Shown piece by piece: positions 7,058 to 22,240 of a DNA stretch of 26,268 bases. Below the pieces are notes generated by a model. It was not told the DNA's origin and did not search any database. It was given only the letters and a program-made list of their open reading frames with translations. The number at the start of each line of letters is the position of its first letter. Positions within the stretch are counted from its first letter, which is position 1. This DNA is from a virus: the IMG/VR virus record IMGVR_UViG_3300028920_000244, positions 1-26,268 of that record; one strand, given 5' to 3'. The translations under genes and the position numbers were made by a program.

Positions 7058-8026
7058 TTAAATAGCCGGTTCGGTGATCAGGGTCTGATCGAACCGTTTG
7101 ACCGGAACTTCTTCGAAAGTCAGCAGCCGGCGTTTACCGAACGCTGTTTCCCAATCGTAACTCACGTTACTCTTGTCCTTCGAAGCGATCTTCATCTGAG
7201 TAAGGATTTTCTTATTCAGATAAATTACCGCACCAGCCCCTTCGTAGGGCATTTCGTCGAGCGCCTCAATTAAGAGATCCTCGTCGAAAATATTGGTGGC
7301 ACCAGCGGTTTCGATCGAACCAACCCGCTGGATGGATGACTGATCATGAGGCACAAACCCTGCCTGGATGATGAAATGAGAAACGTGACACTGATAGGGT
7401 TTGTTGTTTGCGTCCCAGACCATTCTGATTCCCAGGTCCTTATAGGATAAGGAAGTGTTACCACCCTGGGGGTAGATCATGTAACACATTTCAGGACCCC
7501 ACTGTACGATATAAGCGGAGGCACAGTCATTGCCGGTCCCTCCGTTATCCCATACATTGTCCTGGTTGGTCGGGTCCCAGAAGCGGGTGGCCCAACCGTC
7601 GATACCTCGAGGCTCTGTTGCGGTGTTTCCGTACAGAACGCCGGTACCGAAAGTTTTGGTCAAGCCGCGGATAAATGCCATATCTTCCTGAGATCTGACT
7701 CTTTTTTTATCCTTGACTTTTTCGATCAAACGAGTGTCGACAAAGGAGTACGCTTCGAGCATACCGATCCCTTCTTCACCCGGTTTGGCACGTCCGGCAT
7801 AAGTCGTTACACCGGCATTGATCGCTGACCATTCACCTGAAGGCTCTTCTAACCAGGTTGAGTACAGGTGATAGGTATCCATATTGGCCAGTTCCCAGTG
7901 AGCGTCCTCGATGACCGGTGTCTGGGCCATAAGAACGTCGGCAATGGTCATCAGGTTCCCATTCGCTGTACGTTTGGTTATTTCGCCTAGTGTGAGTTTG
8001 TCAAAGCTGAGTTCTGATCCTGCCAT
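7058..8026 (-). CDS. Major capsid protein (BPP-1 type, HK97-like fold)
   Basis: A 322-residue protein lying between scaffold and cement genes. The N-terminal MTIADVLMAQTPVIEDAHWE region, a central YSFVDTRLIEKVKDKKRVRSQ segment and a GIDGWATRFWD motif resemble major capsid proteins of BPP-1-like podoviruses. The mature protein would form the icosahedral shell. The start ATG follows GGAGAG about seven bases upstream. There is only an eight-base gap to the cement gene, whereas the upstream gap to the scaffold gene is 111 bases and contains a hairpin. The fold assignment is from position and family resemblance. Confidence 0.85.
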   Translation of the reverse strand: MAGSELSFDKLTLGEITKRTANGNLMTIADVLMAQTPVIEDAHWELANMDTYHLYSTWLEEPSGEWSAINAGVTTYAGRAKPGEEGIGMLEAYSFVDTRLIEKVKDKKRVRSQEDMAFIRGLTKTFGTGVLYGNTATEPRGIDGWATRFWDPTNQDNVWDNGGTGNDCASAYIVQWGPEMCYMIYPQGGNTSLSYKDLGIRMVWDANNKPYQCHVSHFIIQAGFVPHDQSSIQRVGSIETAGATNIFDEDLLIEALDEMPYEGAGAVIYLNKKILTQMKIASKDKSNVSYDWETAFGKRRLLTFEEVPVKRFDQTLITEPAI

Positions 8027-8860: not shown

Positions 8861-9122
8861 GTCTTACTCCTTCCACAAATTGTGCCGCTTTTTGTGGCCG
8901 CATCACATTAGCGACGTATAATAGCTTCTTTGCGAAGTTATTTAAGGCAATATCTTCTTCTGTTTCGGTTAAATCGAAGAAGCCACACTCTTCGAGGAGC
9001 CAGGTAAAGGTCCGGAGGCCCGAAGGGGTGGTAAAAAAGGTATTATGGAAATCATCTTCCCATTCTTTCAAGATTTCGAGAGGCATTCCGGTATATCCGT
9101 CGAGTTCTTCGCTATCAGCCAA
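8850..9122 (-). CDS. Small hypothetical protein between portal and scaffold (90 aa)
   Basis: A 90-residue acidic protein (starting MADSEELDGYTGMPLEILKE). The TTG at 9122 overlaps the portal stop and has GGGAG about seven bases upstream, so I prefer it to the internal ATG 12 codons later. The predicted helices and the aromatic FHNTFFTTPSGLRTFTWLLE segment resemble the small gene often found beside phage portal genes. Function is not known. Translational coupling with the portal gene is likely. Confidence 0.7.
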   Translation of the reverse strand: MADSEELDGYTGMPLEILKEWEDDFHNTFFTTPSGLRTFTWLLEECGFFDLTETEEDIALNNFAKKLLYVANVMRPQKAAQFVEGVRHGG

Positions 9123-10758
9123 CGGGTGCTCCCGGTACCGGCGCCTGATTTGCGTTATTGTACGCCTGTGCCTGCTGCTGTGCCAGCATTGCCTGCCGTT
9201 CTTCCTGCATGATCCGTGCTCTTAGCTGTCTGATTATACGGACTTCATTGTCTTCTTTAACAACCTTGCCGGGAACTGACTGGTAGCGATACAGATGTTT
9301 CATAACCTCGTCTTTATCGAGATAATCAGCTGCCTGATCCATCCCCGGGATGGTCTGCATGAGTTCCCCGGTGACCTGAAGGGTCCGGAGGAGCCCCTGC
9401 TCCTGAAGCATCTGCCGGGCCCGCGGTAAGGGACCGATAAACCGGAGCCGAACACCGACATCCTCCATTTCATCGGGAGCTGTGGGCATTCTTCCGTACC
9501 GATCTGCGATATCATAGGTCCGCTGCAGGACTTCTTTCATATAATTGGTCATGATAATAAGGGTCGGTGATAAGACAGCGACCTGTTCCGACTTCGCTTC
9601 TGCAATTTCGTAGGCGGTTTTCTGTCTGTTCGACTCCATCAGCATGGTGAAAAACCCGACCATATATCTGTCTCGTAAGAGCTGGTCTTTCCGCTCGATG
9701 GTTTTTTCGGTGGGGATCCAGTTGACCCCGGTAACCATCGCTGAAGGAATATGGAGCCGGTCTCTGAAATAATGCATTCCCCGGGGTTTAATGCGGGTCT
9801 TGCCTTTCATCGACTCGTGGACCGCCCAGGGCGGGTCGCCCATAAGTTCGGCCTGGACCATCGAGGTCTTATTCATCTTCGAGGTGTAAATGATATCTGT
9901 TAATGCGTCCATACCGAGCGAGGTGCCCCAGGTATAATCAAAATCGGTTCGCCAGCGCCAGTAGAGGTGCGGGAACGAATCGTAACCGGATATACGAAGG
10001 AGCTTGCCGTCTTTTCCGTTGTCTTCGGAGAGGTAATGAACCGATGCCCACCGTTTTTTCGTTGCCTGAACATACCCCGGCTGCCAGTCCTCACGCTCGT
10101 ATATCGCAACCGTAACTTTCCGTTTATCAAAAGGGTTCTCCTCGAGGGCTTTTTTCATTTCCGGGGTAAAAACATCTTCACCGTACTCTTTCCAGATGTT
10201 TTTGAGGATCATATCCTCTTCGAAGAATTCGACATCCGGGCCCTCTTCCCCGCCCCCGATAGCGATATTATGAGGATGTTTGACTTTGTATTTGAGTTTT
10301 TCCCCGGCATGATCTTCGTCCACCGACAAAGGGACCGTGCCGATGCCGGCGCACATGGAAATAGCTTTTTCCATTTCGGTGTAGAAGTTGGATTTATCCA
10401 GCTCGTAATAGAGGGCCTCTTCGAGGTCATCGAGGAAGATCCGGATTCTCCGTGAGGGAGTATAGCCCGGTTTATAGGCTTCCATTTCCAGCCACCGGGA
10501 TCCGGGATTCATGGAATATCCGAACATACCGGCGGTTAAGAGGTTGTGATAATTCTGGGCTGCACCATCATAACAGTCCTTACCGGTCCTGATATCCGAC
10601 GGTTTATTGAAGCCGTAGACTAAGCCGATCTCGAATTGGGGTAGAAGGTATTTTGCGACGTCGGTCATGAGGTCGAGGTGGTATTTTTTTTCGTCGTCTA
10701 AGGCTTTTTTCCATTGCTGCAGTAAGGTGATTAGTTTCGTGTTATCTTCATTCTTCAT
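9115..10758 (-). CDS. Portal (head-to-tail connector) protein
   Basis: A 547-residue protein of the podovirus connector family (T7 gp8-like). The dodecamer would form the DNA channel at one capsid vertex, binding the terminase during packaging and the gp11-like adaptor afterwards. Recognisable family features are the N-terminal helical WKKALDDEKKYHLDLMTDV segment, GMFGYSMNPGSRWLEME (about residues 78-94), HLYWRWRTDFDYTWGTSLG (about 263-281) and the Gln/Ala-rich C-terminal tail. The length is close to the family norm. It overlaps neighbours on both sides by a few bases, indicating a tightly coupled operon. Confidence 0.9.
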   Translation of the reverse strand: MKNEDNTKLITLLQQWKKALDDEKKYHLDLMTDVAKYLLPQFEIGLVYGFNKPSDIRTGKDCYDGAAQNYHNLLTAGMFGYSMNPGSRWLEMEAYKPGYTPSRRIRIFLDDLEEALYYELDKSNFYTEMEKAISMCAGIGTVPLSVDEDHAGEKLKYKVKHPHNIAIGGGEEGPDVEFFEEDMILKNIWKEYGEDVFTPEMKKALEENPFDKRKVTVAIYEREDWQPGYVQATKKRWASVHYLSEDNGKDGKLLRISGYDSFPHLYWRWRTDFDYTWGTSLGMDALTDIIYTSKMNKTSMVQAELMGDPPWAVHESMKGKTRIKPRGMHYFRDRLHIPSAMVTGVNWIPTEKTIERKDQLLRDRYMVGFFTMLMESNRQKTAYEIAEAKSEQVAVLSPTLIIMTNYMKEVLQRTYDIADRYGRMPTAPDEMEDVGVRLRFIGPLPRARQMLQEQGLLRTLQVTGELMQTIPGMDQAADYLDKDEVMKHLYRYQSVPGKVVKEDNEVRIIRQLRARIMQEERQAMLAQQQAQAYNNANQAPVPGAPVG

Positions 10759-11427: not shown

Positions 11428-11435
11428 TATATATG

Positions 11436-11458
11436 AAAAGCGAAACATTTTCGCTTTT
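11436..11458. promoter_or_regulatory. Palindromic operator copy 1 (or 5' UTR hairpin)
   Basis: AAAAGCGAAA and TTTCGCTTTT form a ten-base perfect inverted repeat around a three-base centre. It sits just downstream of the -10 and ends where the ribosome site (AGGAGG, 11459-11464) begins. A 21/23-identical copy lies at 22241-22263 beside the AbrB-like gene. At this position a bound protein would block transcription; as RNA it would form a hairpin flanking the ribosome site. Confidence 0.65.
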
Positions 11459-11468
11459 AGGAGGAAAA

Positions 11469-11645
11469 ATGAACGAAACAAAGACAGTTAAGCTTCGTAT
11501 TCAGAATCATTATGACAGATCACAGATGATCTGCGCCCTGGCAAACGCGGGATATAAGGTCTGGGCAGAGGAAAAAAACTATCCGAATACAGTGAGTACA
11601 GACTATTGGGTATATTTCGAGGTAAATGAAAGTTATGTTGGTTGA
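11469..11645 (+). CDS. Small hypothetical protein, cassette gene 1 (58 aa)
   Basis: A 58-residue soluble protein starting MNETKTVKLRIQNHYDRSQM and rich in aromatic residues (YKVWAEEKNY, TDYWVYFEV). I chose the ATG at 11469 because it has AGGAGG four bases upstream. The in-frame ATG at 11433 falls at the transcription start and would translate the operator palindrome. The pattern of a beta strand, a helix (SQMICALANAGY) and two strands suggests a small alpha/beta fold. No family is recognised. Confidence 0.65.
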   Translation: MNETKTVKLRIQNHYDRSQMICALANAGYKVWAEEKNYPNTVSTDYWVYFEVNESYVG

Positions 11646-11668
11646 ATATTTTTTTTTGGAGAAGATAT

Positions 11669-11890
11669 ATGGGACTGAAAAAAGCATTTACTGATGAACA
11701 GCGGTGGGCGATCTACACGATCAAGATCGGCATGAACCCCGGCTATGGGGATATGAAGCCGTCGGAAAAAGCTCCGTTCGAGGAGCTGGTCGACATGAAA
11801 ATCTTAAAGAGGGGGACAGACAGATATGAAGCTGGGGAACGTTTTACGGAACATCAGAATCTTTCGTACTTTAAGGACTCTGATTCTTAA
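11669..11890 (+). CDS. Small hypothetical protein, cassette gene 2 (73 aa)
   Basis: A 73-residue protein starting MGLKKAFTDEQRWAIYTIKI. The ATG at 11669 has GGAGAAG about eight bases upstream and is preferred to the in-frame 11642 start, which would add a short Phe/Trp-rich stretch. The second half (PFEELVDMKILKRGTDRYE) looks like a helix followed by a beta wing, reminiscent of a short winged-helix, but this is too weak for an assignment. It lies 23 bases after cassette gene 1. Confidence 0.6.
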   Translation: MGLKKAFTDEQRWAIYTIKIGMNPGYGDMKPSEKAPFEELVDMKILKRGTDRYEAGERFTEHQNLSYFKDSDS

Positions 11891-11906
11891 CATAGACAAA
11901 GACAAC

Positions 11907-12212
11907 ATGAAGGCATCAAAAAAGCCTTTATACTTCGGACTCATTCTCTGCTGGGATGAGGTAACCTTAACCCATACGGTTGTCTACCGCAGAACCAAAC
12001 GTGCCGCAACCCGGGCATTAAAACGCTTGAAGCGGTCAGACGAAATACATAGGGGGATTTATCATGAAACGGTATCGGATATATATACGAGGCGTACAGC
12101 TCCGGTGGTTCCTACTCCTGATGCTAACCGGCTGGCTGCTCTCGTCATTCAATATCTTCGCCCCGATTCACGAGCTTGGACACGTTCTGGCGTACCAGCT
12201 CATTGGAATTAG
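11907..12212 (+). CDS. Basic hypothetical protein, cassette gene 3 (101 aa), overlapping
   Basis: The frame gives a basic protein starting MKASKKPLYFGLILCWDEVT. The first 52 residues lie outside any other plus-strand gene and look protein-like (VVYRRTKRAATRALKRLKRS forms a strongly basic helix). The last 49 residues overlap the start of the membrane protein gene in another frame. No convincing ribosome site precedes 11907, and an upstream in-frame ATG at 11826 sits inside gene 2. The N-terminal part is probably real. The exact start and the value of the overlapping tail are uncertain. Confidence 0.45.
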   Translation: MKASKKPLYFGLILCWDEVTLTHTVVYRRTKRAATRALKRLKRSDEIHRGIYHETVSDIYTRRTAPVVPTPDANRLAALVIQYLRPDSRAWTRSGVPAHWN

Positions 12213-12756
12213 GTCGGGGTTTACGTCATGGAGTACAACTGGTTCCTGGCAGATACATCCCTTCGGCCTCGCAGCAGGGTACTTTTTCGAATTGTTTGTA
12301 TGGTTCTTTCTCTCCTTGATCCCAAAACCCTGGTGGAAGCCGTTTGCTATCGGAGTGTTGGTCGATGTGCTCTGGGCCGGACTCATATCGTCGGATATTG
12401 CACGAATAAACAGCCAGCTGGTTACCATTTTCTTTGGGTCAGTCGCCCTTTATTTTATTGCCTATGGTCTTTTTATAACGTGTGTTGGAAATGTGACCAT
12501 AAAAAGCAGGAAAAAGGAGCCTAACGGATGGATACGGTACTTATTCTGGGGAATGGAATCTCGAGACTCCTCTACCACAAAGAAATCCTCGCCTTCGACG
12601 GTGAAATCTGGGGATGCAACTTCATTTTCCTTGAATACGGAGATATCCTTGGGAGAGTTGTCGGACATCGATACGTCATGGACCAGGCAGAACTCTGGAA
12701 GAAATACAAGAACTTTCCCTATGACGTCCACTACCACGAAGAATGGGAAGAGATAA
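12064..12756 (+). CDS. Membrane protein with HELGH zinc-peptidase-like motif
   Basis: A 230-residue protein. Residues 1-150 contain about four hydrophobic segments (roughly 14-32, 67-86, 94-110, 118-142). HELGH at residues 36-40, in the context APIHELGHVLAYQLIG, is the HExxH zinc-binding signature seen in membrane metallopeptidases such as the M50 group. A clear third ligand (NPDG or LDG motif) is not seen, so activity is uncertain. AGGGGG lies about eight bases before the ATG. Residues beyond 154 are Ser/Thr-rich low complexity and are entirely overprinted by the next gene. As a moron product it might act on the host envelope, but that is inference. Confidence 0.6.
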   Translation: MKRYRIYIRGVQLRWFLLLMLTGWLLSSFNIFAPIHELGHVLAYQLIGIRSGFTSWSTTGSWQIHPFGLAAGYFFELFVWFFLSLIPKPWWKPFAIGVLVDVLWAGLISSDIARINSQLVTIFFGSVALYFIAYGLFITCVGNVTIKSRKKEPNGWIRYLFWGMESRDSSTTKKSSPSTVKSGDATSFSLNTEISLGELSDIDTSWTRQNSGRNTRTFPMTSTTTKNGKR

Positions 12757-13052
12757 ACAGAACGATCAGAGGGAACTCCGGAGCGTTCCTTGTTGCCATG
12801 GCGATTGAAGAAGAACGAGAAATTACGTTGTGCGGTATGGATTTCGGCGGACCGGATATTTATTCCCCGAATCAGGAGATTCGCCCGAGCGGGATCCGCC
12901 GCCGGTTTCGGTTAATCGAAAAGATATACGGATCGTATCCAATGAAATTCTGGGGCAAGAAACCGGAAGAACCATTTACGGTCATACCGGGCTATGAAAA
13001 TCTTGTAAAAGACTACTGGCCGGTGGGAAAAATATATGAAGAATCTGGTTGA
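12528..13052 (+). CDS. Rossmann-like protein with GNG motif (sialyltransferase/DUF115-like)
   Basis: A 174-residue soluble protein. The N-terminus MDTVLILGNGISRLLYHKEI followed by WGCNFIFLEYGDILGRVVGH resembles the opening of CST-type sialyltransferases and DUF115-like proteins, in which a GNGPS-type loop is followed by an N-x-F strand. Later motifs are LCGMDFGGPD (about residues 103-112) and PFTVIPGYENL. AAGGAG lies eight bases before the ATG. It overlaps the membrane protein frame by 229 bases. A glycan- or nucleotide-sugar-binding role is plausible but unproven; the protein is short for a full glycosyltransferase. It ends 36 bases before the convergent terL stop. Confidence 0.65.
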   Translation: MDTVLILGNGISRLLYHKEILAFDGEIWGCNFIFLEYGDILGRVVGHRYVMDQAELWKKYKNFPYDVHYHEEWEEINRTIRGNSGAFLVAMAIEEEREITLCGMDFGGPDIYSPNQEIRPSGIRRRFRLIEKIYGSYPMKFWGKKPEEPFTVIPGYENLVKDYWPVGKIYEESG

Positions 13053-13087: not shown

Positions 13088-14605
13088 TCAGGCAAATGGA
13101 TCGAACTCCTCCTCATCGTGAGTCAGATAGTTTTCAAGAGGCAGACCGAAGTGATCAAACTCCTCCGGAGGAAGAATATTCAAGCTGGGATCCTTTATCC
13201 TCGAAAGACAGTCGAGCATATCGTCATGGCTGGCAAACGGATGTGAAACGTATTCCTCGTTGATAAACACATTCACCAGATCGTTGCGTTCTCCATCCCA
13301 GCTCTGATAAATTACCGGCTTATCCGGAAGAAACAGTTTTCCTTCCCTGAACACCGGGAACAGCCAGTCGATCCGGTTGTTCTTTTTTACCGGCCCGCCC
13401 ATGGGCTCGATCAGAAACCGGTAGTTCTCGTCGTTCATTTTTTCCTCGTAATGCTCGATATCCGACTGCATCCCATATTCTTCATAAAAAACGTGATGCG
13501 GTTCATAGCGGTGATGTAAAGAAAAGAGCATCCGTGTTTTCTGGGCGAGATCCAATTTATCCCGAACGATATCGATAACATACCAGTTCCGGTCAGCACC
13601 GTACCCCATAATCCAGAACACGCAGTAGTCATGCGTACTCTCCCGCTTCTTGGAAGGGTCAACAAAGATAATTCTTTTCAAGCGGTCTATCCGGTTTACG
13701 GTCCAGTAGCGGAGCCAGTCGAGTTCGAACCCGGCCTGCCCGCCCTGCTTCGGGTCAAGGAGGTTCTGACAGGCGGTTACCATGGGAGATTGTTCTCGCA
13801 AGCGTTTCTCCCATTCTTCCCGGGACCACATCACCGGGTTGCCGTAGATCGTCCCATCATCGGTAGCAGGGTAGATCCTGGGTATGGCAGCTCCCCGTTG
13901 TATGACTTCCATGTTCGCGTCATGATGAGCGTAAAAGGTACCCTCGTACCGGCGGGCACCGCCCTCAACACCTAAGGATAAAGAGAGATCCCAGGCATCT
14001 ATGGTCTTCCGGATCATCTGCGGAGAATCGTTCTTATCTGTCTGGATATCGTTATAGATAACCACATCAGCATGCTTACTGGTCGGCTGTCCGTCGATAA
14101 GCCCCCATGCCTCGATGTTATTCGTATTCCGGACCGATTTACACTTGAACACCAGACCATCATCTTCAGACCATTTCGGCGCTTCTGTCTTCGGATGGTC
14201 CCAGAACACGTTCGGCCAGCAGGCCGGCAGTAACGAGTTCATCTCGCAGATCAGTTTGATAACCCTTAAGAAACTTTTGGCAATGGGCCGGTTGAAACTT
14301 AAAATCAGATGCCGCCGCTCAACATCATTAATGAGTCCCTGTATGGTCCCCAGAATCGTTATCAGAGAACTCTTATAATGCTCCCGGGCCCAGAGATCGA
14401 AGTAGCCGTTCTCCGCGGCTTCAACCTCTCTGCAGCGCTCAAAGACAAAATCCCGATCACCGTCCCATCGATCCATGACATAGAGAAACAGAAACCACCG
14501 GTCCTTTTTGCCCAGCTCACGGATAACATCAATAACGCATCCGTCCTCCTGGGCAGCCGTCATCAACGTTTTGTAGTAGCGGTTTACTTCCTCTCGTTTA
14601 GACAT
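13088..14605 (-). CDS. terL: Terminase large subunit
   Basis: A 505-residue packaging motor. From the N-terminus: a helical region, a variant Walker A-like AREHYKSSLIT (about residues 73-83), a Walker B-like VVIYNDIQTD, and the RNase H-like nuclease with IIFVDPSKKRESTHDY, HVFYEEYGMQSDIEHYEE and the final HDDMLDCLSRI acidic motif. It pumps DNA through the portal using ATP and cuts concatemers. I start at ATG 14605 (MSKREEVNRYY), which overlaps the previous stop by eight bases and has GGGAG just upstream. A longer frame from 14647 would extend into the upstream gene. terL is separated from the portal by the plus-strand cassette, an unusual interruption. Confidence 0.92.
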   Translation of the reverse strand: MSKREEVNRYYKTLMTAAQEDGCVIDVIRELGKKDRWFLFLYVMDRWDGDRDFVFERCREVEAAENGYFDLWAREHYKSSLITILGTIQGLINDVERRHLILSFNRPIAKSFLRVIKLICEMNSLLPACWPNVFWDHPKTEAPKWSEDDGLVFKCKSVRNTNNIEAWGLIDGQPTSKHADVVIYNDIQTDKNDSPQMIRKTIDAWDLSLSLGVEGGARRYEGTFYAHHDANMEVIQRGAAIPRIYPATDDGTIYGNPVMWSREEWEKRLREQSPMVTACQNLLDPKQGGQAGFELDWLRYWTVNRIDRLKRIIFVDPSKKRESTHDYCVFWIMGYGADRNWYVIDIVRDKLDLAQKTRMLFSLHHRYEPHHVFYEEYGMQSDIEHYEEKMNDENYRFLIEPMGGPVKKNNRIDWLFPVFREGKLFLPDKPVIYQSWDGERNDLVNVFINEEYVSHPFASHDDMLDCLSRIKDPSLNILPPEEFDHFGLPLENYLTHDEEEFDPFA

Positions 14606-14795
14606 CCCACTCCCAACTGAAAGAAGCCGTCCAGTAAAGCCAGCCAATACAGATAACCAGCCTCCGCCGTAAAACCTCCCTGATATCCTCTTCGATGTTT
14701 ACCATCGAATCCACATAAGAAACTTCACATTCGGGTAGAAGCTGTATCGTGCTTATACACCAAAGTCCGTATCTCCTAAACTCAATTCTTTTCAT
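14598..14795 (-). CDS. Small hypothetical protein before terL (65 aa)
   Basis: A 65-residue protein starting MKRIEFRRYGLWCISTIQLL, with a hydrophobic, Trp-rich C-terminal segment (VICIGWLYWTASFSWEW). The ATG overlaps the preceding TGA (ATGA) and has GGAGGAA immediately upstream. The C-terminal hydrophobic stretch could be a single membrane anchor. No family is recognised. Confidence 0.65.
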   Translation of the reverse strand: MKRIEFRRYGLWCISTIQLLPECEVSYVDSMVNIEEDIREVLRRRLVICIGWLYWTASFSWEWDV

Positions 14796-15308: not shown

Positions 15309-15827
15309 TTATTCAACCCCGCTTGTATTGGGTTTGGTTGTGATCTCTTTCATGGTCTTCTTATGGAACTCTGATTGTGGTTGATATGTTATGGTTTGAG
15401 TGTGTTCTTCTTTGCCCTGTTCGATCTTCTCCATCATTAAGGTTACTCGTTCGGTTACTTTCGTGTTCTCTTTTGGTTTAGGGTTGATTGTTTTCGAGTT
15501 GATTCCTTTGTATAAATCATAGAGTTTTGTCTTCTCTATTGTTATTTTACGTGCTTCTGAGAGCTTCTTTTCTTTTATTGCCTGTTTGTAGAGGTTCTCA
15601 AGATCGTTGATTGCTTCGGCGAGAATGGCATCTCTCTCTCTATCCATTTTATCATACATGATGTCTCGAGCCTTTGAACAGTAAATGTCTATCATTCCAT
15701 CCGAGATGTTCCAATCTTCATGCTCTGTTTGGATGAAATGAATGATCTGCTTTCGAGTGTATCGTTGTGCGATAAGGCCGAGAACAATGGTTATACGATA
15801 TTCTAATTCTGCTTTGGTTGCTTTCAT
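15309..15827 (-). CDS. Terminase small subunit-like protein
   Basis: A 172-residue, highly charged, helical protein. The N-terminal third (ELEYRITIVLGLIAQRYTRK, then DGMIDIYCSKARDIM) looks like a helix-turn-helix DNA-binding unit, followed by long helices rich in Lys/Glu and a polar tail with TERVTLMMEKIEQ. This domain order, the size and the position upstream of terL fit a small terminase subunit that would recognise the packaging site. The start lies only six bases from a TATGTT -10, so the message may be leaderless; no ribosome site is seen near the ATG. The assignment is moderately supported. Confidence 0.65.
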   Translation of the reverse strand: MKATKAELEYRITIVLGLIAQRYTRKQIIHFIQTEHEDWNISDGMIDIYCSKARDIMYDKMDRERDAILAEAINDLENLYKQAIKEKKLSEARKITIEKTKLYDLYKGINSKTINPKPKENTKVTERVTLMMEKIEQGKEEHTQTITYQPQSEFHKKTMKEITTKPNTSGVE

Positions 15828-15833
15828 TTTTCT

Positions 15834-15862
15834 AACATATCCTAATATAGGAGCGAATGCAA
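15834..15862 (-). promoter_or_regulatory. Promoter of the terminase operon
   Basis: On the minus strand TTGCAT (15862-15857), a 17-base spacer and TATGTT (15839-15834) precede the terminase-small-like ATG by six bases. The -35 hexamer TTGCAT is identical to that of the virion operon promoter at 11404-11409. It overlaps the outer arm of the nested inverted repeat element. Confidence 0.45.
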
Positions 15863-15919
15863 TGGCTGAACCCTCTTCTCTGCCCCGGGCGAATATGTTC
15901 TTTCTTAGCTATCTGATAT

Positions 15920-15996
15920 GAGAAAAAGCGCCAAGTAATGTGATTATGTTGTTGATTTATAGGATTATATTGCCACATTACTTGTCACATTTTCTC
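15920..15996. repeat. Arm B: 23-base imperfect inverted repeat around AT-rich spacer
   Basis: 15920-15942 and 15974-15996 are complementary at 20 of 23 positions, with a perfect 11-base core CAAGTAATGTG / CACATTACTTG. The 31-base AT-rich spacer carries a direct repeat, GATTATGTTG and GATTATATTG. The half-site centres are 42 bp apart (about four helical turns), so paired protein-binding sites are an alternative to a hairpin. Confidence 0.75.
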
Positions 15997-16016
15997 AATC
16001 TTTACGAACTATCTTA

Positions 16017-16117
16017 CCTTGTCCTTTGCCCCTGATTGTTTGTAATTCGATCAATTCCAATTCAGGAAAGTGAGAATTGGAATTGATCTTTTACAATCAG
16101 GTGCAAGACGGACAAGG
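16017..16117. repeat. Arm C: 101-nt long hairpin with 37 base pairs
   Basis: The arm is built from CCTTGTCC/GGACAAGG (16017-16024, 16110-16117), TTTGC/GCAAG (16025-16029, 16103-16107, one G-U pair), CCTGATTGT/ACAATCAGG (16031-16039, 16093-16101), an asymmetric internal loop, and a perfect 15-base stem GATCAATTCCAATTC (16049-16063) with 16074-16088 closing a ten-base loop (AGGAAAGTGA). No T-run follows, so it is not an ordinary terminator. Confidence 0.8.
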
Positions 16118-16311
16118 GGGAAAGAGAGAATCGACGGTCTGCACCGGGGCAGAGAAGGTGTTTGAGCCGATTGCTTTTCATCTGTCCTCGATTAAGGGAA
16201 TATCCCACGTAGATACCATGGATTTGCTTCACATCTGAAGGCGTTGACGACCTATGAGGATTACCTCTCCTGCCGTATGGTGGGAGCACATTTATCTTAT
16301 GGAGGGCTATT

Positions 16312-16770
16312 ATGGCCGAATTCACAATTGATTCTTTCCTGAGCGACAATGATGTTTGGAATGATCGGATTGACAAGTCCGAACTTCCTGTCATCGAGCC
16401 TGCTGACACCTGGGGCGAAACCGTGAATGATTTACTCAACCGGATCGTCTCAAACTTCAGAACTGGCACTGAGGGTAAGGAGGACAACCGTGCTTTGAAT
16501 GCGAACATCGAGTATGTCTTTGACGTAATCGAACAGGCGCATGATCAAGTCGGGATGTTCAACTTTCTGACAACTGTCGCCGGTAAGCTGAAATCGCTGA
16601 ACATGAAATCCTATGCAAAGCTGACCCCGAAATCCTACAAGGGTGTCAGCCTTGACTCTATTGTCGAATCGTTCGACATGGAAACAGGTTTCAGGTTCGC
16701 CAATCATCCTCTGTCTTTGTTCTCAGCACTTCAGACGAATAAAGACACGATCATCGAGGCCATCAAGTGA
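16312..16770 (+). CDS. Hypothetical protein (152 aa), first gene of unknown two-gene unit
   Basis: A 152-residue acidic protein starting MAEFTIDSFLSDNDVWNDRI. GGAGGG lies about seven bases before the ATG. The protein is helical in the middle (VNDLLNRIVSNFRT, IEYVFDVIEQAHDQVGMFN) and has a Lys-rich region (KLKSLNMKSYAKLTPKSYKG). No cysteine cluster, membrane segment or known motif is seen. It forms a two-gene unit with the next gene (GTGA overlap), follows the structured element 15859-16174 and ends at a strong terminator, so the unit is transcriptionally self-contained. Its promoter is not clear. Confidence 0.75.
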   Translation: MAEFTIDSFLSDNDVWNDRIDKSELPVIEPADTWGETVNDLLNRIVSNFRTGTEGKEDNRALNANIEYVFDVIEQAHDQVGMFNFLTTVAGKLKSLNMKSYAKLTPKSYKGVSLDSIVESFDMETGFRFANHPLSLFSALQTNKDTIIEAIK

Positions 16771-17336
16771 AAAGTGCATCAGATGTTTCTGAACTTCTTG
16801 ATCTTGATGGTTATAAGTCGGAGGCAGGGTTCGTCCCTGCTTCCAATGTCTTATCTTTGGTCGAGCAGGGTTATTGGTTGCGTTGTGATGAGTACACCGC
16901 TAAATTGTGGAATGACGTTCCCATGTTGTTCTACGGTAAGCATCCGATCTCATTCAATCAGCCGATCATCACAGCTATCGGTGACGAATGGTTCATCTGC
17001 CGTAAAGGCAAGCTCAAAAACAAGCGTCTTGATCGACTGCCCTTCGAGAACCTTGAATTCATGTACTTCACGATTTCCGATCCTATGTACAAAGTAACAG
17101 TGTTGCTTGACGACCCTGAATGCTTTGTCACCATTGATGGAAAGTCCGATGAAGAACAGCAGTATTGCAATTGGTTCCTTGAGCGCTATTTCAGCGAGTT
17201 CGAGGAACGGCGGGTTGAACGCTCTGATGGTATATCATGCGATATTCCGGACGAGTATCATCCCTTGCCTGCTGACCCGGTCATTAGATTTGAAACGATC
17301 GTGCATCATCGGCAGGTGCGTGAAATCAGGTTCTAA
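16767..17336 (+). CDS. Hypothetical protein (189 aa), second gene of the unit
   Basis: A 189-residue protein beginning with a GTG that overlaps the previous TGA (GTGA), with GAGG about nine bases upstream. The sequence (starting MKSASDVSELLDLDGYKSEA) is aromatic-rich and mixed alpha/beta, with FNQPIITAIGDEWFICRKG and YKVTVLLDDPECFVTIDGKS as likely beta segments. It does not match any family I recognise. The coupling with the 152-aa gene suggests a joint function, possibly host takeover or defence-related, but nothing in the sequence proves that. Confidence 0.75.
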   Translation: MKSASDVSELLDLDGYKSEAGFVPASNVLSLVEQGYWLRCDEYTAKLWNDVPMLFYGKHPISFNQPIITAIGDEWFICRKGKLKNKRLDRLPFENLEFMYFTISDPMYKVTVLLDDPECFVTIDGKSDEEQQYCNWFLERYFSEFEERRVERSDGISCDIPDEYHPLPADPVIRFETIVHHRQVREIRF

Positions 17337-17340
17337 CGTT

Positions 17341-17374
17341 TCCCGGGGGGTTTCGGCCCCTCGGGATTTTTTTT
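17341..17374 (+). terminator. Strong intrinsic terminator
   Basis: TCCCGGGGGG (17341-17350) pairs with CCCCTCGGGA (17357-17366) in a ten-base-pair stem with one G-U pair and a six-base loop. Eight T residues follow at 17367-17374. It closes the two-gene unit five bases after the stop codon. Confidence 0.92.
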
Positions 17375-17426
17375 AGGCCCAGGTAACTCGGGTCTTTAAA
17401 TATTCATACTTCTCGAAGGAGGGCGA

Positions 17427-17654
17427 ATGTATGATTTAGATTATCCCGATTTTGTCTTTGATTCTATCTATGGCTATGGAGCCAGCGCTGAAATGAGAGG
17501 TAAAGATTATGGAAGAACGAATGACATACACGTTCGCATTGGAAATCGTCGCAAGCAGTTTCTTCGAGTTCCGCCAGACCCATTTGAATTGCACTTTCAA
17601 GGAGTATCAGGAGTTATCGGTCACAGCAGAAAGGTATTTGGAGGATTTGTATGA
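17427..17654 (+). CDS. Small hypothetical protein (75 aa), overlapped gene A
   Basis: A 75-residue frame starting MYDLDYPDFVFDSIYGYGAS with GGAGGG five bases before the ATG. The first 27 residues are unique sequence. From 17509 onward it is overlapped in another frame by the 57-aa gene. The C-terminal half (basic, Pro/Gly/Val-rich) looks less protein-like than the competing frame, so the functional part may be only the N-terminus, or both may be used. No family is recognised. Confidence 0.5.
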   Translation: MYDLDYPDFVFDSIYGYGASAEMRGKDYGRTNDIHVRIGNRRKQFLRVPPDPFELHFQGVSGVIGHSRKVFGGFV

Positions 17655-17682
17655 ACTCGACCAACAGGCTGTCTACGGCTGA
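17509..17682 (+). CDS. Small hypothetical protein (57 aa), overlapped gene B
   Basis: A 57-residue frame starting MEERMTYTFALEIVASSFFE and ending YLEDLYELDQQAVYG. AGAGG lies seven to eight bases before the ATG. Composition is that of a normal acidic, amphipathic-helical protein, better than the overlapping part of gene A. It overlaps gene A by 146 bases and gene C by 32 bases. Function is unknown. Confidence 0.55.
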   Translation: MEERMTYTFALEIVASSFFEFRQTHLNCTFKEYQELSVTAERYLEDLYELDQQAVYG

Positions 17683-17812
17683 ACAATTATTATTTCAGCG
17701 GAATCTCTTTCCTAAGTTTTCAAGGTCATGGCGATACTATGACCACAAATTATCTGCTCTAAGGAGGATAAACTATGAGCGATACAAAAAACAGCGTGCT
17801 TCTCGAAGGTAA
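17651..17812 (+). CDS. Small basic hypothetical protein (53 aa), overlapped gene C
   Basis: A 53-residue frame starting MNSTNRLSTAEQLLFQRNLF and ending in a strongly basic helix (LSALRRINYERYKKQRASRR). GGAGG lies six bases before the ATG, which overlaps the stop of gene A (ATGA). It overlaps the start of ssb by 38 bases and contains the ssb ribosome site. Basic charge suggests nucleic-acid contact. The strong ribosome site is the main support. Confidence 0.55.
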   Translation: MNSTNRLSTAEQLLFQRNLFPKFSRSWRYYDHKLSALRRINYERYKKQRASRR

Positions 17813-18119
17813 TCTCACGAGAGATCCAGAGAGTACGTCTACTCCCACCGGTAAGACCGTCACGAAATGTTCTATCGCAGTTAATGAGGTGTACAGATCG
17901 TCTGATGGCTCACTGAAAGAAACCGTTTCATTCTTCGATATCGATGCATGGAATGGTGTCGGTGAACGGCTCGCTTCTTTTCAGAAGGGTGATGCCGTAC
18001 AATTGGTCGGCAAACTGCGCCAGGATCGTTGGCAGGATGCTGAAAAGAAAAACCGTTCTCGGGTGAAAGTTGTCGTTAATCACGTTAGACAGCCTTCGAT
18101 CATCCCGACAATGGTTTAG
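17775..18119 (+). CDS. ssb: Single-stranded DNA-binding protein
   Basis: A 114-residue OB-fold protein. NSVLLEGNLTRDPE at the N-terminus, then TGKTVTKCSIAVNEVY, VSFFDIDAWNGVGERLASFQ, KGDAVQLVGKLRQDRW and a final strand are the canonical SSB order. It would coat single-stranded DNA in replication and ERF-mediated annealing. It lacks the long linker and acidic C-terminal tip of host SSBs, ending in PSIIPTMV, so it probably does not recruit host partners in the usual way. AAGGAGG lies eight bases before the ATG. Confidence 0.9.
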   Translation: MSDTKNSVLLEGNLTRDPESTSTPTGKTVTKCSIAVNEVYRSSDGSLKETVSFFDIDAWNGVGERLASFQKGDAVQLVGKLRQDRWQDAEKKNRSRVKVVVNHVRQPSIIPTMV

Positions 18120-18135
18120 AACGTGGTAAAGCCAT

Positions 18136-18233
18136 GGCAGAGGGCCTCGAATACTCTGCCTTTTAATCTCTTTTAATAAGAGATCGCCTGTCTCCGGTTA
18201 TAGTGCAATCAGCCGGGGGCAGGCATTTTTTTT
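18136..18233 (+). terminator. Hairpin cluster and intrinsic terminator after ssb
   Basis: Three hairpins follow ssb. GGCAGAG/CTCTGCC is centred near 18148. ATCTCTT/AAGAGAT spans 18166-18184. The terminator stem pairs GCCTGTCTCCGG (18186-18197) with CCGGGGGCAGGC (18213-18224), 12 base pairs with two G-U, followed by eight T residues (18226-18233). The last is a convincing intrinsic terminator. Confidence 0.85.
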
Positions 18234-18310
18234 GTGCCAGTGTATACATGATCTTTATTCTTCAGTGTACTCGTACCAACAGTTTTATCGTATTCTCGAA
18301 GGAGGAAAAG

Positions 18311-18976: not shown

Positions 18977-19221
18977 ACAGTCTTAATTCAGTTTTATTCG
19001 AAGGAAGAATGGGTAACAAGTATACCGTTGATGATGAGCTGCGGAGCCAGCTGCAGTCATGGTATGAGAACGATGATGTCCGGGTCCCGGCTATTTTTAA
19101 GGGGAAAATGAAAGACGTTGCTCGGCTGGTTGATAAAGGAGAGTATATCCGTGTGATTGGCCGGCTCAGAAATAAGGGGGAACTGGTCGTCGAGCATATC
19201 GAAACAGGGATACGGAAATGA
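18973..19221 (+). CDS. Short OB-fold protein resembling a second SSB
   Basis: An 82-residue protein whose pattern mirrors the SSB at 17775. NSVLFEGRMGNKYTV corresponds to NSVLLEGNLTRD, VRVPAIFKGKMKDVARL to the DIDAWNGVGERLASF strand-helix, and KGEYIRVIGRLRNKGELVVE to KGDAVQLVGKLRQDRW. It is shorter than the SSB, lacking the middle hairpin (about 30 residues). It could be a diverged duplicate that binds single-stranded nucleic acid or an accessory subunit. The start overlaps the previous stop and has AAGGAGG upstream. The resemblance is from reading, not alignment software. Confidence 0.6.
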   Translation: MNSLNSVLFEGRMGNKYTVDDELRSQLQSWYENDDVRVPAIFKGKMKDVARLVDKGEYIRVIGRLRNKGELVVEHIETGIRK

Positions 19222-19823
19222 AAACGTATGACCCGTATCGAACATTACAGATCACCCAGGGACAGGGCAAAATGGAAGGGATTCCTTCTCTGAATACCAG
19301 CTCGCTGACAAATCCGTTCTGCCAGGATATGTCTGCTCATGAGGGGACGGTCTGCAGCAAATGTTATAGCAGTCGATTACTGCATTTTCGCCGGGCCTTG
19401 AGTAAAAGATGTGACAAGAACGGTATTATCCTCGAGAGCTCTGGAGAGATATGGATCCCGCCGATTAACTCATTGTATTTCAGGTTCCATTCGTTCGGTG
19501 AGTTGATAAATATGGGACATCTTGAGCATCTGCATGATATCTGCCTGGACAATAGAGATACCATGTTCTCTCTCTGGACCAAGCGGGTTGATTTTATCTG
19601 GTATTACCTCGATGAGTTTGCCAAACCGGAAAACCTGGTACTGGTGTACAGTGAAGAGCTGATCAATCCTATCAGTCCGCAGATCCCTCTGGGATTTGAT
19701 CATGTGTATGCCGTGTATGATAAAACATCTCCGGTTGAAATAAATTGTCCGGAAAAATGCATCGATTGTTTACGGTGCTATCAAAAAGAGACGAAAGAAA
19801 TCGTCAGAGCGAGGTTAAAATGA
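19218..19823 (+). CDS. GP88-like phage protein with cysteine clusters
   Basis: A 201-residue protein with two cysteine groups: C35, C46 and C49 (in GTVCSKCYSSRL) and C177, C181, C184, C187 (CPEKCIDCLRC). Between them are RFHSFGEL (residues 89-96) and SLWTKR (118-123). This order (Cys-x-x-Cys-Tyr, then R-hydrophobic-H-x-x-G-E/D, then W/L-x-T-K/R, then a terminal Cys cluster) is what I recall for the GP88 family first seen in mycobacteriophages. The cysteines suggest metal or Fe-S binding. Its biochemical function is not known to me. It overlaps both neighbours by four bases. Confidence 0.55.
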   Translation: MKTYDPYRTLQITQGQGKMEGIPSLNTSSLTNPFCQDMSAHEGTVCSKCYSSRLLHFRRALSKRCDKNGIILESSGEIWIPPINSLYFRFHSFGELINMGHLEHLHDICLDNRDTMFSLWTKRVDFIWYYLDEFAKPENLVLVYSEELINPISPQIPLGFDHVYAVYDKTSPVEINCPEKCIDCLRCYQKETKEIVRARLK

Positions 19824-22030: not shown

Positions 22031-22240
22031 CACTTACCTCCTTGGTCCGGTTGGGTTTTCACTCCTTTCCCGGCCGGACCACATCCCGCTGCGGCCTGAC
22101 GGCAGGTACCTTTCATTGTGGAAAGGGGAAGCGGTTCGACTCCGTTCAGTGGGAATCCAAATACCTCCATAAGTTTGAGAGGGGGGTTTCCCATAGCCGG
22201 CGTATCAGGACTCCTGTAATACCGGCTCCCCCTCTCTTTT
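22031..22240 (+). ncRNA. Probable new ~210-nt structured RNA with tRNA-like domain
   Basis: Hairpin 1 pairs 22043-22055 with 22069-22081 (13 bp, two G-U). A tRNA-like cloverleaf follows. Its acceptor-like stem is TCCCGCTG (22084-22091) with CAGTGGGA (22147-22154). The D-like arm is CCTG-ACGG-CAGG (22095-22106). The anticodon-like arm is CCTTTC/GAAAGG (22109-22126, six-base loop). The T-arm (22130-22146) has a canonical seven-base TTCGACT loop. The D-loop is too short and no CCA follows directly, so it is not a normal tRNA. The long 3' hairpin (22177-22236) ends in TTTT. An own promoter and terminator support an independent transcript. No known family is recognised. Confidence 0.7.
22177..22240 (+). 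terminator. 3' hairpin/terminator of the structured RNA
   Basis: GAGAGGGGG (22177-22185) pairs with CCCCCTCTC (22228-22236), with G-U extension. Inside, GCCGG/CCGGC (22196-22200, 22222-22226) stacks after a nine-base bulge, and CAGG/CCTG forms a small top stem. TTTT (22237-22240) follows. The stem is far stronger than needed and the T-run is short, so it may also be a functional RNA domain. Confidence 0.65.

Follow-up and report, generated by a model that had tools for sequence, protein, structure and literature searches.

Among described systems, the packaging RNA of phage phi29 (pRNA, RF00044) is a three-way junction tied to packaging genes (PMC12670572). The element described here was found in a window of viral DNA, by which we mean the whole stretch of 26,268 nucleotides that was analyzed, and resembles phi29 pRNA in being a noncoding three-way junction of a phage beside packaging genes; it differs in its much longer helices and in having no interlocking loops. 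A second comparison is offered by phage epsilon15, which has an annotated RNase III processing site (2720-2819) upstream of its head genes. The RNase III hairpins of epsilon15 and the window element both place long double-stranded stems before morphogenesis genes, and the portals of the two phages are related. However, the epsilon15 site folds little better than its shuffles (z -1.2) and is located after the terminase genes, whereas the window element is located before them. Phages also contain the large structured noncoding elements GOLLD and ROOL, which are composed of many short conserved helices, whereas the window element is composed of three long simple ones and has no Rfam match. To our knowledge, few structured RNAs besides the phi29-type pRNA have been linked to the packaging or late operons of phages, and our search of the open-access literature turned up no previous description of an element like this one.

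The record is a 26-kb fragment of a virus, and the phage is podovirus-like. The minus strand carries the genes for a GP7-type capsid protein (7058-8026), the portal (9115-10758; PF12236) and the large terminase subunit (13088-14647; phrog_38, E 7e-35; PF17289, E 2e-5); for portal and capsid, the identities among the matches listed are 22-31%. A 172-aa minus-strand ORF (15309-15827) is probably the small terminase subunit, as suggested by its position and by a predicted N-terminal helical domain with long helices. The structural matches of its single-sequence AlphaFold model (pLDDT 68) include the small terminase of phage G20C, with a Z-score of 6.2 over 105 residues, which is not decisive. An early-type region on the plus strand encodes an SSB, a ParB-like protein, an Erf-type annealing protein and a GP88-type protein. 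The first gene of the divergent plus-strand unit is a 152-aa ORF of unassigned function (16312-16770), immediately preceded by the Shine-Dalgarno sequence GGAGG, and its structure model was too poor to use. This unit (16312-18119) is ended by a rho-independent terminator (18185-18236, plus strand; GCCTGTCTCCGG...CCGGGGGCAGGC followed by T8) right after the SSB gene (17775-18119), and the terminator region (18110-18310) folds at a z-score of -4.8.

Several other features of the window were observed. Between the terminase and the portal-proximal genes, a block of ORFs (11433-13052) is inserted on the plus strand, opposite to the head operon; epsilon15 also carries an ORF of reversed orientation at the matching place. 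The GP88-type protein (19218-19823) is 45% identical to that of virus vir526, which is assigned to Methanomicrobiales, and vir555, another virus with this assignment, matches the portal and capsid of the window; these matches are a possible hint of an anaerobic host or habitat. A tRNA-like call by ARAGORN (22084-22155) has a defective anticodon and is probably spurious.

The element occupies the position claimed for it in the earlier note, the divergent junction beside the terminase operon, where it lies between the late (terminase/head) minus-strand operon and the plus-strand unit. It is separated by 31 nt from the small-terminase-like ORF, whose ATG is at 15827 on the minus strand. The only long ORF that reaches into it (16062-16508, minus strand) is antisense to the gene at 16312 and is probably a shadow ORF.

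The element spans 15859-16174 (~316 nt) and is built from three nested inverted repeats, P1, P2 and P3, in which 83 of the 91 in-register positions across all helices form Watson-Crick pairs. All three arms of the three-way junction proposed in the earlier note were recovered. As read on the plus strand, the 5' arm of the outer stem P1 (15859-15888) consists of GCAAT followed by GGCTGAACCCTCTTCTCTGCCCCGG, and it pairs with the 3' arm at 16144-16174. The perfect core of P1 comprises 14 bp (15875-15888/16144-16157); it is extended by 15864-15867/16165-16168 and then, beyond a 1-nt bulge at 16169, by 15859-15863/16170-16174. Within P1, the P2 hairpin (arm B) is formed by 15919-15942 and 15974-15997 and encloses an AT-rich loop of 31 nt; 21 of 24 positions are paired by our recount, where 20 of 23 had been reported. 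The P3 hairpin (arm C; 16017-16117, 101 nt) has its 5' side at 16017-16063 and its 3' side at 16074-16117, with blocks of 8, 4, 9 and 15 bp and internal loops of 1x3, 1x1 and 9x4. The last block is a perfect terminal stem (16049-16063/16074-16088) closed by a 10-nt loop (16064-16073). The long hairpin and its perfect stem were thus as first described, whereas the number of base pairs was corrected from 37 to 36.

The folding energy of this region was far below that of shuffled sequence on both strands, as the proposed fold had implied. In particular, RNA folding of 15840-16195 gave -141.1 kcal/mol (z -9.2) on the plus strand and -133.8 kcal/mol (z -12.2) on the minus strand, and folding of 15855-16180 as single-stranded DNA gave a z-score of -10.7. 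A composition regression over 1300 windows of 330 nt gave the background of the window itself; relative to it, the element stood at -7.4 sd and the next-best place at -4.1 sd. The three arms of the element were the only inverted repeats in the window with a score of at least 14; among 182 other phage loci (1.90 Mb), 76 such repeats were found, and no nested triple was present even at a score of at least 13. Chance complementarity had been called very unlikely, and on the fold statistics and the 1.90-Mb comparison, a chance origin of the element is excluded. A scan of 71 divergent intergenic regions ranked the window element and one member of the aquatic-phage group described below as the most structured. 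The leader of the plus-strand unit (16180-16311) folds about like shuffled sequence (z -0.9). Additionally, a short hairpin next to the element (15840-15852; TCCTA-ATA-TAGGA) contains AGGA, a possible ribosome site for the small terminase gene on the minus strand; this hairpin was not significant by shuffling.

Relatives of the element were sought by comparing its DNA with 50,697 phage and 72,556 plasmid records, and by looking for the exact P1 core at variable spacing in 2.9 million viral contigs and 84,980 genomes. These searches detect exact or close matches, and none of the four collections yielded a homologue; nor did the exact, spaced P1 core recur in the viral contigs or genomes. With TerL, the ORF 16312 product, the major capsid protein (MCP) and the portal as queries, no close relatives were found in the collections searched. 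Alignment-based scans with GP88, MCP and TerL returned only distant phages, and no locus in the gene-by-gene comparison had more than three genes in common with the window. Among the junctions scanned, those of phages with a window-like portal or capsid, which were few, had no comparable element. In Rfam, no family reached its gathering cut-off, and only chance matches to miRNA hairpins were seen far below it. The claim that neither coding sequence nor a known RNA explains the element therefore holds: nothing is evidently encoded, and no Rfam family matches.

A structured element at an equivalent place was found in other phages. In 31 loci of aquatic phages, a conserved structured element precedes the terminase/structural operon on the strand of that operon, and in most of them the neighboring gene points away from it. 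These loci came from the TerL scan, except for L047 and L048, which came from the GP88 scan, and their terminases are 22-29% identical to that of the window over the RNase H domain. Examples are L177 (650-868 or, within it, 658-829), L161 (7238-7365), L124 (4755-4900), L133 (1632-1755), L107 (3408-3623) and L047 (5803-5935, minus strand), and the element is present in 25 other loci. Its size is mostly 110-220 nt. A GGGG run is found on its 5' side, an outer stem surrounds two or three hairpins, and the conserved 3' part reads GGGTACGG...TATATC...CCCATTCT..AATTTTTT. An inner loop bears CCCC and may form a pseudoknot with the GGGG run.

The outer stem of the aquatic-phage element covaries strongly. 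The sequences of its arms vary between phages while their complementarity is kept, and single columns show up to five pair types. RNAalifold returned no pairs from a MAFFT alignment because the 5' arms had been misplaced by MAFFT, and an arm-swap permutation test was used instead. Cognate arms paired with a mean of -19.2 kcal/mol compared with -12.8 kcal/mol for swapped arms, and none of 20,000 permutations reached the cognate mean. L047, L171, L184 and L118 rank low in this advantage, perhaps because their 5' arms were misplaced or have been lost. The mismatches (eight G-U and six A-C) are close in number, so that the data demonstrate pairing and fit RNA and DNA alike. The element in L177 folds at a z-score of -9.1. 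The element region of six of these loci, five of them verified by alignment, had no Rfam match, and one member had no match in the 50,697 phage records. The aquatic-phage element is possibly a new phage RNA family. Two further intergenic regions are strongly structured, L079 (7592-7756; z -6.4) and L085 (8788-9029; z -7.0), and in each a terminator-like hairpin lies within a larger stem.

Upon comparison, the window element and the aquatic-phage element were found to be similar in layout, with an outer stem enclosing hairpins, and in place: each sits at the junction that precedes the terminase operon and shares the strand of that operon. In contrast, there is no sequence similarity between them, the window element is larger (316 nt compared with mostly 110-220 nt), and both the GGGG 5' side and the GGGTACGG...CCCATTCT..AATTTTTT 3' part are missing from the window. 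The best hit of the aquatic-phage profile in the window had an E-value of 0.25 at 13064-13028, and none fell in the element. By sequence, the window element thus lies outside the aquatic-phage group; it appears to be an analogue in place and layout, and we do not claim homology.

The reading that we prefer is that the element is a structured RNA before the late operon, read with it on the minus strand, and that it forms the 5' leader of the terminase mRNA or is released from this transcript by processing as a noncoding RNA; we put the probability of this reading at roughly one half. Whereas fold and position are observed, the function of the element is unproven, and we infer that it is transcribed, on the minus strand and as the first part of the late operon. 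The 31-nt gap that separates the small-terminase-like ORF from the element is too short for a promoter and a ribosome site, which suggests that the late transcript starts inside or beyond the element. A late promoter would lie in 16175-16311, between the element and the plus-strand unit, or within the element, and the transcript would begin with the three-way junction. The helices of P3 (36 bp) and P2 (21 bp) may then shield the 5' end of the transcript or, alternatively, be cleaved by an RNase that acts on double strands, for example RNase III, and such shielding or cutting would set the stability or yield of the terminase mRNA. A released junction could possibly act in trans, and any packaging role is speculative. 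A sigma-70 promoter scan revealed no convincing promoter, which counts only a little against this reading. Also counting against it are the absence of homologues in the collections searched and the lack of a comparable element in the few scanned junctions of phages with a window-like portal or capsid.

Several observations are consistent with this RNA. The minus strand, which is that of the terminase operon, gives the larger fold z-score (-12.2 compared with -9.2). Read on the minus strand, the mismatches within helices are four A.G, one U.U and one G.U, and on the plus strand they are four C.U, one A.A and one C.A; those on the minus strand are mostly of kinds tolerated in RNA, which is suggestive of a minus-strand RNA, although the numbers are small. 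The G-U and A-C mismatches (one each) do not discriminate between RNA and DNA. We also counted the unequal internal loops of P3 (9x4 and 1x3) for RNA, as they are unlike a plain DNA palindrome. The covarying element at the equivalent junction of phages with distantly related terminases lends indirect support, by analogy only. Of the three readings offered in the earlier note, a structured RNA, a replication origin and a packaging site, it is the structured RNA that this junction element of aquatic phages indirectly supports.

A DNA-level site is the main alternative and a strong one, if less probable than a structured RNA. Here, the inverted repeats would serve as a replication origin or a pac/cos-type site, with an initiator or the neighboring small terminase recognizing them as a duplex or as extruded hairpins. 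The repeats are equally strong in DNA folding (z -10.7), and the balance of G-U and A-C mismatches is also compatible with DNA. pac sites are often located in or near the small terminase gene, and the small-terminase-like gene is 31 nt away. The minimum of the cumulative GC skew falls at 15.5-16 kb, although this turn is equally explained by the switch of coding strand between the divergent genes. However, neither iterons nor other repeats were found near the element, the whole window contains no DnaA-box-like site (at most one mismatch), and unequal internal loops are untypical of protein-binding palindromes.

It is improbable that the element is a fold-back mobile (MITE-like) element or its remnant, or an orphan retron msr-msd RNA in which P1 would be a1/a2 and P3 the msd. 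Terminal inverted repeats do surround hairpins, and a TTAGC just inside the P1 side on the plus strand bears what we take to be a weak resemblance to a motif in some retron RNAs. The ends show no evident target-site duplication, however, and no copy was found in phages, in plasmids or elsewhere in the window, where the one extra match is that of P3 to its own reverse complement. The 26-kb record, a fragment, contains neither a reverse transcriptase (RVT_1; controls were positive) nor a Y1 transposase of the IS200/IS605 type. A retron noncoding RNA, an IS200/IS605-type element and a MITE are disfavored on these grounds. A packaging RNA working like phi29 pRNA on the packaging motor, which the three-way junction and the close terminase genes on the same strand might suggest, is very improbable and is not supported, as the element is much larger than phi29 pRNA and has long helices, its loops are not complementary and so do not interlock (the longest match between the P2 and P3 loops is 3 nt, AAA/TTT), RF00044 did not match at its gathering score or in a direct search run without a positive control, and TerL is of another type (PF17289/phrog_38 instead of gp16). 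PF05894 (gp16-type ATPase) had no match in the fragmentary record in a scan in which no control matched.

Returning to the structured RNA, it is conceivable but rather unlikely that structured RNAs at the head of late operons form a class defined by place and layout across several tailed-phage lineages, of which the window and aquatic-phage elements would be independent members serving late-gene control or packaging. The present comparison adds a strong, undescribed structured element before the terminase genes of one phage and a covarying, non-Rfam element at the equivalent place in others. Together, the two provide concrete sequences with which roles in transcription, processing and packaging may be tested.
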